NCBI GenBank assembly: GCA_003599865.1
Contig: QZKS01000026.1
Coordinates: 1 to 64,000, forward strand
Reading direction: 5' to 3'
DNA from: Desulfobacteraceae bacterium
GTDB taxonomy: Bacteria > Desulfobacterota > Desulfobacteria > Desulfobacterales > SURF-7
DNA length: 64,000 bases
Shown: positions 10,414-13,549 of the stretch, piece by piece
Layout: each line of letters begins with the position of its first letter
How positions within the stretch are numbered: the stretch's first letter is position 1
Made by a program: the position numbers and the translations under genes
Notes under the pieces: generated by a model
Databases searched by the model: none
The model's input: only the letters and a program-made list of their open reading frames with translations
Told to the model about the DNA's origin: nothing

Positions 10414-10518
10414 TCAAGAAAGATGCGCTTGAAAGCTCATCCTACCAGGCTCCTCATACCAAACAAACGCGTCATTGATTTCCGCTTCCGCTTCGGGCCG
10501 GATTATCAATTCATGCAT
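10414..10518 (-). pseudogene. ParE/RelE-family toxin truncated by REP copy 4
   Basis: ATG at 10518 overlaps the antitoxin stop by 8 bases (ATGCATGA), the usual arrangement of these modules. The frame reads MHELIIRPEAEAEINDAFVWYEE, the typical first beta strand and helix of a ParE/RelE toxin, then enters the REP and stops at 10414 after 34 residues. A full toxin is about 95-105 residues, so the catalytic C-terminal part is missing. The lost part was not found beyond the other REPs, so it was deleted rather than simply split. Confidence 0.75.
10418..10451 (-). repeat. REP copy 4 (upstream of RAYT remnant 2), interrupting a toxin gene
   Basis: GAAAGATGCGCTTGAAAGCT then CATCCTACCAGGCT is inverted relative to REP copy 3 and 24 bases upstream of the remnant 2 ATG, as in remnant 1. 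Its outer end (10451) falls inside the reading frame of a ParE/RelE-like toxin. Confidence 0.8.
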
Positions 10519-10738
10519 TACGTCTTTTCCCAATTCGTCCGAGAACGATATCCCAAGGCTCGCCCTGATTGGGATCACGGTGATAAGCGTCCAAACGGTT
10601 ATCCAGCTCAATTTTTTGTTCTTTTGATAGCTGAATAGCGTCCGGAATCTGTGCAATACTATCCCAGATATCATCAACCAATTGTATACGTTCAGATATG
10701 CTCAAATTTAAAATGTCTGATTTTGCTAATGTCCCCAT
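10511..10738 (-). CDS. Addiction-module antitoxin (orphaned)
   Basis: 75 residues, complete. The sequence SDILNLSISERIQLVDDIWDS and ELDNRLDAYHRDPNQGEPWD follows the conserved pattern of the addiction-module component/antitoxin family normally encoded just upstream of a RelE/ParE toxin (ILxLSxxERxxLvxxIWdS, then ELdxRLxxxxxxPxxxxxW). Such antitoxins bind and neutralise the toxin and repress their operon. Here the toxin is truncated, so only an antitoxin is left; it may persist as an anti-addiction remnant or be decaying. Confidence 0.8.
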   Translation of the reverse strand: MGTLAKSDILNLSISERIQLVDDIWDSIAQIPDAIQLSKEQKIELDNRLDAYHRDPNQGEPWDIVLGRIGKRRNA

Positions 10739-11017: not shown

Positions 11018-11149
11018 TTTATCTCCGGAAAAATATTTGATGATAACTATCCAATATTTCTTGACAAAATTCAAGAGATAAAATACCCTGCATCAAAAAA
11101 TATTCCGAGTAAACAACTCTTTATCCGAAAACCAAGAAGGGAATCCAAT

Positions 11150-11428
11150 ATGAACAAGCTGGAACTCATTGACGCATTACGGTCGGAAACCAAAATATCA
11201 AAACCGGAAGCGGCGAAAATCGTCGATCTGTTTTTCAATGAAATATCAGAGGCTCTTGCGAAAGAAGACAGGGTCGAAATTCGGGGGTTGTGTTCTTTCT
11301 TTGTAAAAAAGTATGGTTCATATACCGGTCGGAATCCGAAAACCGGCGAGAAAGTGACCATTGCGCCGAAAAAGCTGCCGTTTTTCAAATGCGGGAAGGA
11401 GTTGAAAGAGCGGGTGGATCATCAATAA
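11150..11428 (+). CDS. HU/IHF-family DNA-binding protein (accessory copy)
   Basis: 92 residues covering the full HU/IHF fold: a helical dimerisation part (MNKLELIDALRSETKISKPEAA), beta arms and the DNA-intercalating tip GRNPKTGEKV, ending KLPFFKCGKELKERV. HU proteins bend and compact DNA. ATG at 11150 follows AAGAAGGG; the upstream extension to 11009 has no family similarity and overlaps the divergent regulator. Its sequence differs clearly from the second HU at 59606-59878, so the cell has at least two HU-type proteins. It lies 40 bases before the Sec-DsbA gene, possibly in the same operon. Confidence 0.9.
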   Translation: MNKLELIDALRSETKISKPEAAKIVDLFFNEISEALAKEDRVEIRGLCSFFVKKYGSYTGRNPKTGEKVTIAPKKLPFFKCGKELKERVDHQ

Positions 11429-11468
11429 TACAGAACATGATTCAGCAGCCGAAAGATAAGAGGAATTC

Positions 11469-12092
11469 ATGACCGGAAAAGCAATCCTTGAAATATTTTC
11501 CGACTACATTTGACCTTGGTGTTATTTCATTACCGGGCGTATTGAAAAACTTCAAAAAGAGTTTGATATTGAAATCCAGTGGGTAGAGTTTCCCTTACAT
11601 CCCCATATTCCAGAGGGTGGGTTAACATTTGATGAACTGTTGGCGGGACGCAATATTGATATACATCAGATGATGACGCACTTAAAGAATGTCGCCGGCC
11701 AGGTGAACCTGCCATTAAATGATCCGAAAAGAGCATATAACACTCGTTTAGCGCAAGAAGTTGGAAAGTGGGCAGGGGCTCACGGGAAAGGCGATGAATT
11801 CCATAATGCCGTATTCAGCGCTTATTTTGTTGATTCGAAAAATATCAGTGATCCATTGATCCTGATTGACCTGGCTGAATCAGTGGGACTTTCCAAAGAT
11901 GATGCCCGGAAAGTAATAGCCAACAGAACATCTAAAGAAGCTGTTGATCAAGATTGGTCTCGTTCGCGTGAAGTGTTTATTTCATCAGTGCCTACATTTT
12001 TAATAAATGAACAAAGACTGGTTGGCGCTCAGTCATATGAAGTCTTGAAACAATTTATGATCAATAACAAGGTAGAAAAAAAACCAGTTTAA
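11469..12092 (+). CDS. DsbA/FrnE-family thiol oxidoreductase, candidate selenoprotein (UPWC active site)
   Basis: One frame runs from ATG 11469 (GAGG 5-8 bases upstream) to TAA at 12092, interrupted only by TGA at 11511-11513. Reading TGA as selenocysteine gives 207 residues: EIFSDYI-U-PWCY places Sec15 exactly at the first position of the family's CPWC motif, with resolving Cys18. The rest is a complete DsbA-family domain with the helical insert (FPLHPHIPEGGLTFDELLAG) and the cis-Pro loop SSVPTFLIN (Pro175). Downstream of TGA lies a SECIS-like hairpin (11521-11550). There is no signal peptide, so it is cytoplasmic. Known: Sec-containing DsbA-like proteins occur in anaerobic deltaproteobacteria. 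Inferred: Sec insertion here. The alternative is a nonsense pseudogene or TTG start at 11640, which would lack the active site. Confidence 0.85.
11521..11550 (+). promoter_or_regulatory. Bacterial SECIS-like stem-loop
   Basis: It starts 8 nt after the UGA. GTT-(A)-TTTCA pairs with TGAAAAAC (8 bp with one bulged A), then a U-U mismatch, then UAC/GUA closes a 5-nt apical loop CGGGC. The loop begins 21 nt after the UGA and has a G in its first two positions. These are the properties known for bacterial SECIS elements bound by SelB. Folding was done by eye only. Confidence 0.7.
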
Positions 12093-12150: not shown

Positions 12151-12795
12151 TTGTTTTTCAGCTTCTTGCAAAAGATTTTTGTTTCAGAAAAAATATTGCC
12201 CTATATTTTTGTTGCCGGTATTCCCGCATTGTTGTTCTATGCTTTTTCCCTGATCGGTTTATCCTATGCAGGGTTTGGTATTATGGAGATCATAAAGGAT
12301 CCCGCACAGCAAACCGGGCAATCCAGTTTTCTTGGATTCCTATCCAATATCGGAATTTGGCTGTGGGTTTCCGCGGGCGCAATCAGTTTGTTTCACGCCT
12401 TGACTTATGGCTTGCAAACCAATGCCGCCCGTAAAGAGTTACTCCTTTTAGCAGGCGTGTTATCCATGATTCTGGCCATTGATGATTTCTTCATGATTCA
12501 TGATCGATATGTCAATCAAAACATTTGCTATCTTGCATACGCTGTTTGTGCAGGGCTTTTACTTTTGCGTCATTTTAAACAGATAATAGAGATTGACGGT
12601 TTTTCATTCCTTCTATTTGGGTCATTGCTCGCGCTATCCATTTTAACGGACTTACTGGACGGGTATATCCCGTTCCGATATAAATACGTCCAAATATTTG
12701 AAGAAGGTTTTAAATTTGTTGGTGCAGCTACGTGGTTATATTTCAGCTGCCGCATCGTATGCTTTCAATCGCTACCTTCTGCAGCAAAACAATAA
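12151..12795 (+). CDS. Hypothetical six-helix membrane protein with DDFFMIHD motif
   Basis: 214 residues, not assigned to a family. Six hydrophobic segments are visible: IFVAGIPALLFYAFSLIGLS, LSNIGIWLWVSAGAISLFHA, LLLLAGVLSMILAI, YLAYAVCAGLLLL, FLLFGSLLALSIL and FVGAATWLYFSCRIVCF. Helix 3 runs into an acidic/His motif (AIDDFFMIHDRY), and a second acidic patch (TDLLDGY, FEEGFKFVG) follows helix 5, a pattern that could form a membrane metal site. The start is TTG at 12151 with AAAGGA 8-9 bases upstream; a stop lies just above it. It is 58 bases after the Sec-DsbA gene on the same strand. Confidence 0.7.
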   Translation: MFFSFLQKIFVSEKILPYIFVAGIPALLFYAFSLIGLSYAGFGIMEIIKDPAQQTGQSSFLGFLSNIGIWLWVSAGAISLFHALTYGLQTNAARKELLLLAGVLSMILAIDDFFMIHDRYVNQNICYLAYAVCAGLLLLRHFKQIIEIDGFSFLLFGSLLALSILTDLLDGYIPFRYKYVQIFEEGFKFVGAATWLYFSCRIVCFQSLPSAAKQ

Positions 12796-12963: not shown

Positions 12964-13476
12964 CTATTCCTCTTTTTTCTCAGGAGTCTTCTGTACCGCT
13001 TTTTTCCCTGCTTTCGCTTTGCCGGAAGCCTTTTTCACAGTGGCTTTCCTTTTCGCAGCTTTCTTTTTTGAGACTGACTTTTTCTTGGTCGCTTTTTTCC
13101 CGGCTGCCTTTTTGGGTTTGGCATCACCGTTGATCATTTTTTCGATTGCATTGGTGAGTCCTTTAATCTGCTTCAATACCGCATCTACCAGCTCTTTTCT
13201 GATGGACATGATCGTTTCATCCTTTCTGTTGGTAAGTTCAAGTTTTTTTCGACTGGAAGGGACCTGTTTCACCCTGTATTCCAGTTTCAGTGCCTGGCTC
13301 ATTGTCATTTCGGAACTGACACCGACCAGCGTTACCGGCCTTCGGGATCTTGTATATTTTGCCCCCTTTCCTGCGTTATGTACCGCCAGTCTGTTGTTCA
13401 GGTTATTGGTTATTCCGCAGTACAGGGACTGATCGGAACATTGCACCAGATACACCAGCCATTTCCGTTCACTCAT
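12964..13476 (-). CDS. GIY-YIG nuclease-like protein with histone-H1-like Lys/Ala tail
   Basis: 170 residues in two parts. Residues 1-85 are a small UPF0213-type GIY-YIG domain (WLVYLVQCSDQSLYCGITNN, HNAGKGAKYTRSRRPV, ALKLEYRVKQ); the GIY and YIG positions read VYL and YCG. After a short helical linker (MSIRKELVDAVLKQIKGLTNAI), about the last 50 residues are a Lys/Ala/Ser tail (KKAAGKKATKKKSVSKKKAA, KRKATVKKASGKAKAGKKAV), like bacterial histone-H1 proteins. At 13209 an in-frame ATG has AAAGGA 10 bases upstream, so the linker plus tail could also be made as a separate 80-aa protein. Start 13476 is chosen over 13479 by spacing from GGA. Confidence 0.82.
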   Translation of the reverse strand: MSERKWLVYLVQCSDQSLYCGITNNLNNRLAVHNAGKGAKYTRSRRPVTLVGVSSEMTMSQALKLEYRVKQVPSSRKKLELTNRKDETIMSIRKELVDAVLKQIKGLTNAIEKMINGDAKPKKAAGKKATKKKSVSKKKAAKRKATVKKASGKAKAGKKAVQKTPEKKEE

Positions 13477-13549
13477 CATTCCGGGCTCTCATGGATCGGG
13501 AAAACAATCATCGATCTTGCCGATTCGTTAGCTTCCGCAAAAGCACCCC

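Follow-up and report, generated by a model that had tools for sequence, protein, structure and literature searches.

One group of bacterial selenoproteins falls in COG2761, which we take to be the FrnE group. A 2005 Sargasso Sea study (PMC1088965) reported DsbA-like selenoproteins of COG2761 with a UxxC motif, and DsbA-like selenoproteins recur in a 2006 genome survey that names two Deltaproteobacteria among their holders (PMC1794560). The family is listed as 'DsbA 1' in the GOS survey (PMC2398784) and as 'DsbA-like protein form 1', with PF01323 and UxxC, in a 2026 review (PMC13188914); the main text of a 2021 paper that assigns 34 putative selenoproteins to a marine deltaproteobacterium is silent on DsbA. 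A Sec-containing FrnE oxidoreductase has also been named in green algae (Mamiellophyceae, M. viride; PMC6627142). FrnE proteins are described in a review as predicted cytoplasmic DsbA-family oxidoreductases, some of which lack a C-terminal CXXXXC. For the Deinococcus protein a role as cytoplasmic disulfide reductase has been proposed, and its mutant shows increased sensitivity to cadmium as well as diamide (PMC8945050).

The window, by which we mean the whole 64,000-nucleotide stretch of DNA analysed here, very probably encodes an enzyme of this kind: we read 11469-12092, with high confidence, as the gene of a FrnE-type DsbA-family thiol-disulfide oxidoreductase that has a Sec-Pro-Trp-Cys site, Sec being inserted at the UGA (Table 1). 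A first-pass annotation had proposed that readthrough of the TGA yields a full-length DsbA-family protein, that the TGA falls on the first Cys of a CPWC motif, and that the frame is intact for 192 more codons and includes the cis-Pro loop SSVPTF. Each part of this proposal holds. The frame has a single internal stop, the TGA at codon 15, and then runs through 192 sense codons to the TAA; no other inactivating change is seen in the window copy. The peptide across the TGA is IFSDYI-U-PWCYF, and U15 and C18 are the only Sec or Cys residues of the product. The DSBA domain PF01323 spans residues 7-195 of the readthrough product (E 2.9e-34); an NCBIfam search returned two matches only, both far under their cut-offs. 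A mechanical ORF call begins at TTG 11640 and so misses the first 57 residues and the active site, a loss that had been foreseen for standard annotation. The product is a well-supported selenoprotein that such a call truncates. TGA is not reassigned throughout, since it terminates 12 of the 45 mechanical ORFs of at least 150 aa in the window.

Table 1. Coordinates of the predicted selenoprotein gene and its features in the window
Feature	Position	Strand	Remarks
GAGGA, likely Shine-Dalgarno	11460..11464	+	4 nt 5' of the ATG; read from the sequence
Predicted FrnE/DsbA-like selenoprotein gene	11469..12092	+	207 residues with TGA as Sec; stop TAA
In-frame TGA, predicted Sec15, the U of the UPWC active site	11511..11513	+	
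TGT, Cys18, presumed resolving Cys	11520..11522	+	
Predicted bacterial SECIS hairpin	11527..11545	+	+14 to +32 past the UGA; 7-pair stem, loop CGGGC 11534-11538
CCT, Pro175, cis-Pro of the thioredoxin fold, SSVPTF loop	11991..11993	+	cis geometry presumed from the family

The TGA is conserved among relatives. At a threshold of E 1e-20 or better, homologues are present in 77 of 395 phylum genomes, a sample drawn evenly from a larger group. They occupy 78 places, where the codon aligned to residue 15 is TGA in 64, TGC in 7, TGT in 5 and not covered in 2; TAA or TAG stands at this codon in none of the 78 (2 of them uncovered). The Sec form is thus the commoner among the phylum homologues found (64 of the 76 places with the codon covered), a share obtained with the Sec-form protein as query, so that distant Cys forms may be missed. 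Another scan, genome_contigs, covered 45 relatives and gave TGA in 9, TGC in 25, TGT in 10 and GGA in 1, counts that lean to Cys copies because one of its search patterns, a peptide, held Cys at the site; the single GGA copy (L053) is a broken frame. Where a homologue has Cys, it aligns exactly to the TGA, at 12 of the 78 phylum places and in 35 of the 45 relatives of the Cys-leaning set. All 73 TGA copies retain Cys18, and 72 retain Pro175, which is uncovered in the other copy; columns 15, 18 and P175 are invariant in a 40-sequence alignment in which TGA was written as C. The nearest relative (L022, 90% identical, from a MAG titled Desulfocicer vacuolatum) retains the TGA. It differs from the window copy by 14 synonymous and 19 non-synonymous codon differences over 197 (dN 0.046, dS 0.157; dN/dS ~0.3), and the FrnE gene is, judging from this comparison, under purifying selection.

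A SECIS element was sought past the TGA, and a candidate emerges there: TGA copies form a 7-pair stem with a 5-nt loop at +14 to +32 after the UGA, and a conserved apical-loop G at +22 (position 11535 in the window) is G in 72 of 73 of them. The window copy forms 6 of the 7 stem pairs, U17.U29 being mismatched, and 2.3% of random synonymous recodings of its peptide reach 6 pairs. When 63 nt surrounding and following the UGA of this copy are folded to minimum energy, other stems form and the hairpin is absent (z -0.52). Because the window copy alone makes a weak case, the family alignment was taken as the basis for judging the hairpin. Among 71 distinct TGA sequences, 466 of 497 stem cells are paired; codon-preserving shuffles, which exchange synonymous codons among sequences and keep the encoded peptides, have a mean of 439.3 (sd 2.35), and none of 1000 reaches 466. 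By comparison, 46 distinct Cys homologues have 187 of 322 cells paired against 188.6 in shuffles, 697 of 1000 of which reach the observed value. A separate covariation count over 72 sequences (70 distinct) finds that 6 of the 7 pairs have changed on both sides, a result matched by 4 of 500 shuffles, and the covariation score in the 72 sequences is 0.454 as against 0.177 in shuffles, with 0 of 500 reaching it. Sliding the partner column by 1-3 lowers pairing from 93.7% to 21-50%. Further pair types show no excess over shuffles in the 72 sequences (12 versus 11.5; 254 of 500 reach it), and 19 of 70 sequences lack pairing at +17/+29.

These counts leave out L053, with its GGA at codon 15 and broken frame, and L152 and L162, in which position 15 is uncovered. 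L034 and L144, whose letters are identical and whose contigs are equally long, look like one record and were counted once among distinct rows. An Rfam scan of 301 bases at the locus gave no SECIS match. A match there to a cyanobacterial sRNA lies on the opposite strand, under the gathering score (E 0.4), and was rejected. Rfam SECIS_1 has no match in the source genome, but it also has none in 14 control genomes, and this genome-wide silence is therefore uninformative. On the family alignment rather than the single copy, then, a covarying SECIS hairpin is present 3' of the UGA, and this clean covarying set could help to train SECIS finders.

The Sec machinery, whose presence the first-pass annotation had proposed checking, was found in the source genome (5.01 Mb, 100 contigs): tRNA-Sec with anticodon UCA on contig C11 (74 bits), SelB on C23 (381 bits), SelA on C4 (639 bits) and SelD on C17 (373 bits), the last with an in-frame UGA of its own. 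Among the matches listed, 54 of the 63 TGA-bearing genomes have a tRNA-Sec of at least 69 bits; no match in that list falls between 69.2 and 64.2 bits, and weaker matches are unspecific, as 10 of 14 control genomes match and 5 pass the cut-off. In the remaining 9 TGA-bearing genomes none reached 48 bits with laxer tRNA-Sec filters, and 8 of these 9 have SelB over the cut-off; the other, G198, has neither tRNA-Sec nor SelB over the cut-off. A tRNA-Sec scoring 69 bits or higher is likewise present in at least 9 of the 12 genomes whose copy has Cys, and the Cys form therefore does not track loss of the machinery. Frames of 402-414 aa that resemble the SelB N terminus (185-194 bits) occur in G047:C20, G185:C238, G077:C220, G198:C138 and, twice, G232:C33, besides a full SelB in each genome except G198, which has none. 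They may represent GTPases that resemble SelB but lack its SECIS-binding part.

A second UCA tRNA of the source genome, at C38:23737-23828, is of the selC* type: it has U73 and G1:C72, and by eye its acceptor is 8 bp long and its T stem contains a bulged A. SelB* begins directly 3' of it, so that the pair spans C38:23737-25766 (L096 5738-7770). With the canonical SelB, SelB* shares 30% identity, and 24% over the presumed SECIS-binding C-terminal stretch, whose limits were set by eye. Reviews describe a selC*/SelB* pair in Desulfobacterales, one of them positing that it serves under selenium scarcity, and trace the selC*/SelB* (CysRS*) UGA-to-Cys system to Mukai et al. 2017 (PMC7609411, PMC9437257, PMC11415595). 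Features in common with that system, as these reviews present it, are the tRNASec-like tRNA, U73, the UCA anticodon, the bulged T stem and a second SelB directly 3'. The source genome differs in having G1:C72, where a review gives A1:U72 for Desulfobacterales, and in the second CysRS, of which none was found: one ordinary CysRS is over the cut-off and nothing else exceeds 41 bits. The pair is a companion system in this genome and not part of the FrnE gene.

A search of 242 genomes of the order with the source-genome SelB* as query gave 21 places of at least 400 bits, including the source genome; the next matches listed are two partial ones (364 and 356 bits), with full-length matches following at 334 bits and less. 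Three genus mates (G583, G614 and G474, with completeness 97, 85 and 89) have no SelB* match of 400 bits. Of 23 fetched SelB* loci (L208-L230), 19 carry a UCA tRNA of the selC* kind according to ARAGORN, all with U73, and 4 carry none; A1:U72 is found in 14 of the 19, with two copies in L212, and G1:C72 in 5, including the source genome. A CysRS-type motif is found in 2 of the 23, and the SelB* matches of L209 and L212 (G072, G593) each contain one in-frame TAA. Among the 77 homologue genomes the pair is shown in five, with anticodon UCA in G000 (the source genome), G132 and G231 and with GCA in G162 and G187. Eight second-tRNA loci of 50 to 64 bits were inspected. L182 and L184 (G187 and G162, of one genus) have the GCA tRNA, of selC* type, beside SelB*, and this tRNA would therefore read Cys codons through SelB*. 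The stretches L179, L180 and L185 are without SelB: L179 (3002-3095) and L185 (4005-4095) have UCA tRNA-like sequences that score 64 and 51 bits as tRNA-Sec and have no encoded CCA, and L180, at 62 bits as tRNA-Sec, contains no tRNA by ARAGORN.

How the UGA is read can be weighed against these observations. If the TGA were an inactivating mutation, the truncated frame of the mechanical ORF call would be accounted for, but a nonsense pseudogene would sit poorly with a codon that is TGA at most of the 78 places and never TAA or TAG, with the apparent purifying selection relative to L022, with a hairpin that covaries in TGA copies and with a genome that has the Sec machinery; we regard it as vanishingly improbable. 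A functional gene could still have its UGA read as Cys and not as Sec. The selC*/SelB* pair does make Cys possible at some UGA codons of the source genome, and selC*(UCA) and SelB* could in principle serve the FrnE gene exclusively. That is very improbable as well, as the canonical tRNA-Sec, SelB, SelA and SelD are all over their cut-offs and the identical 19-nt hairpin letters recur in other copies, among them L081, L082 and L090, for whose genomes selC* is not among the matches listed under strict filters. Selenocysteine at codon 15 is, on this comparative evidence, very strongly supported, and the earlier proposal that Sec is inserted there gains from the conservation of the TGA, the covarying hairpin and the machinery alike.

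Sec need not be the sole product. The UGA might be decoded as Sec when selenium is available and otherwise as Cys, by the selC*-type tRNA(UCA) with SelB*. The second UCA tRNA and the SelB* just after it, the described use of such pairs in Desulfobacterales, possibly under selenium scarcity, and the Cys found at position 15 in 12 of 78 homologues all speak for this reading, which we nevertheless find doubtful. SelB* may read other hairpins, given its distance from SelB, although the low C-terminal identity would fit binding of the FrnE hairpin as well as failure to bind it. The source genome has its single ordinary CysRS, with no other match above 41 bits. Further, from the pairs shown in five genomes, two of them with GCA, the FrnE gene evidently does not follow the occurrence of selC*/SelB*. 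Sec therefore stays the default for the FrnE gene, since the pair is shown in five of 77 genomes and the UGA gene is found in 63. We think it rather unlikely, in particular, that one UGA yields Sec through SelB or Cys through selC*/SelB* according to selenium supply, with the G1:C72 selC* charged by the ordinary CysRS, an assignment made because no second CysRS was found. If this were true, the cell would switch its active-site nucleophile with the gene unchanged, and it is possible that some FrnE molecules would then contain Cys instead of Sec. With its two UCA tRNA/SelB pairs, the source genome offers a natural test bed for asking if Cys could replace Sec at a catalytic position under low selenium.

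For the preferred reading, Sec at codon 15, a mechanism can be proposed. SelB carrying Sec-tRNA-Sec would bind the hairpin 14-32 nt past the UGA and insert Sec at codon 15, as the conserved, covarying hairpin and the machinery in the genome suggest. The product itself is best matched in the PDB, by sequence, by Deinococcus FrnE 5CNW (E 2.3e-16). An AlphaFold2 model built on the 40-sequence alignment (pLDDT 96.0) places residue 15 immediately before helix 16-20 and P175 immediately before strand 176-179. The top VIA-align match of the model is Deinococcus radiodurans FrnE 5COH (Z 27.3, rmsd 1.8, 202 residues, 28% identity), followed by further FrnE entries, SCO1869 (3GL5, Z 25.8) and a Nitrosomonas protein (2IN3, Z 21.9) and, lower, by YjbH, HCCA isomerase, GST kappa and DsbM. 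Deinococcus radiodurans FrnE (DR_0659; 5CNW, 5COH), closest by both sequence and fold, likewise has a CPWC-type site. In contrast to it, the window protein has Sec in place of the first Cys, one Cys only, and no C-terminal CXXXXC (DR_0659 residues 239-244). Judging by fold and family, the attack would come from Sec15, which lies immediately ahead of helix 1; the selenenylsulfide would be resolved by Cys18, and Pro175 would sit next to these two residues. The enzyme, probably cytosolic given that no signal peptide is apparent by eye, would work as a disulfide reductase/isomerase, and with the CXXXXC absent another partner would have to re-reduce it.

No conserved neighbour gene was found among 71 TGA loci and the window, many with short flanks. 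Of the 18 neighbourhood clusters listed, the first is the FrnE gene itself (71 of 72 loci); the next three (37, 10 and 6 loci) have median places that fall within it and seem to be overlapping frames, and the others are each seen in 3 or 4 loci. Since no cluster but the first has a window ORF, synteny yields no hint of a substrate. In the window, the HU-like gene just upstream (11114-11428) and the XRE gene, both named in the first-pass annotation, are confirmed by PF00216 (E 2.4e-30) and HTH_3 (E 1.9e-7). An Unstab_antitox addiction-module component (PF09720, 6.3e-18; 10511-10738, minus strand) adjoins the XRE gene, the 214-aa ORF at 12151-12795 has no Pfam match, and a GIY-YIG domain (9.8e-17) is joined to a Lys/Ala-rich tail at 12964-13479 on the minus strand. 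A tblastx match (31%, E 3e-15) links 11114-11428 to L026 2136-2450, just downstream of the L026 FrnE gene, and may be chance.

Eukaryotic Sec insertion is of another kind than bacterial insertion. The green-algal FrnE (PMC6627142), likened here by name only, is likewise Sec-containing but eukaryotic. The DsbA-like selenoprotein family (PMC1088965, PMC2398784, PMC13188914), as described, shares with the window gene PF01323 and a UxxC motif with Sec first; widespread Cys homologues and a predicted SECIS past the UGA belong to it, as they do here. We see no difference of kind from the published DsbA-like selenoproteins, a likeness drawn from their descriptions. Because DsbA-like UxxC selenoproteins have been published since 2005, and an algal Sec-FrnE has been named, we count the window gene as a further member of a selenoprotein family known since that year and conserved in many related bacteria.
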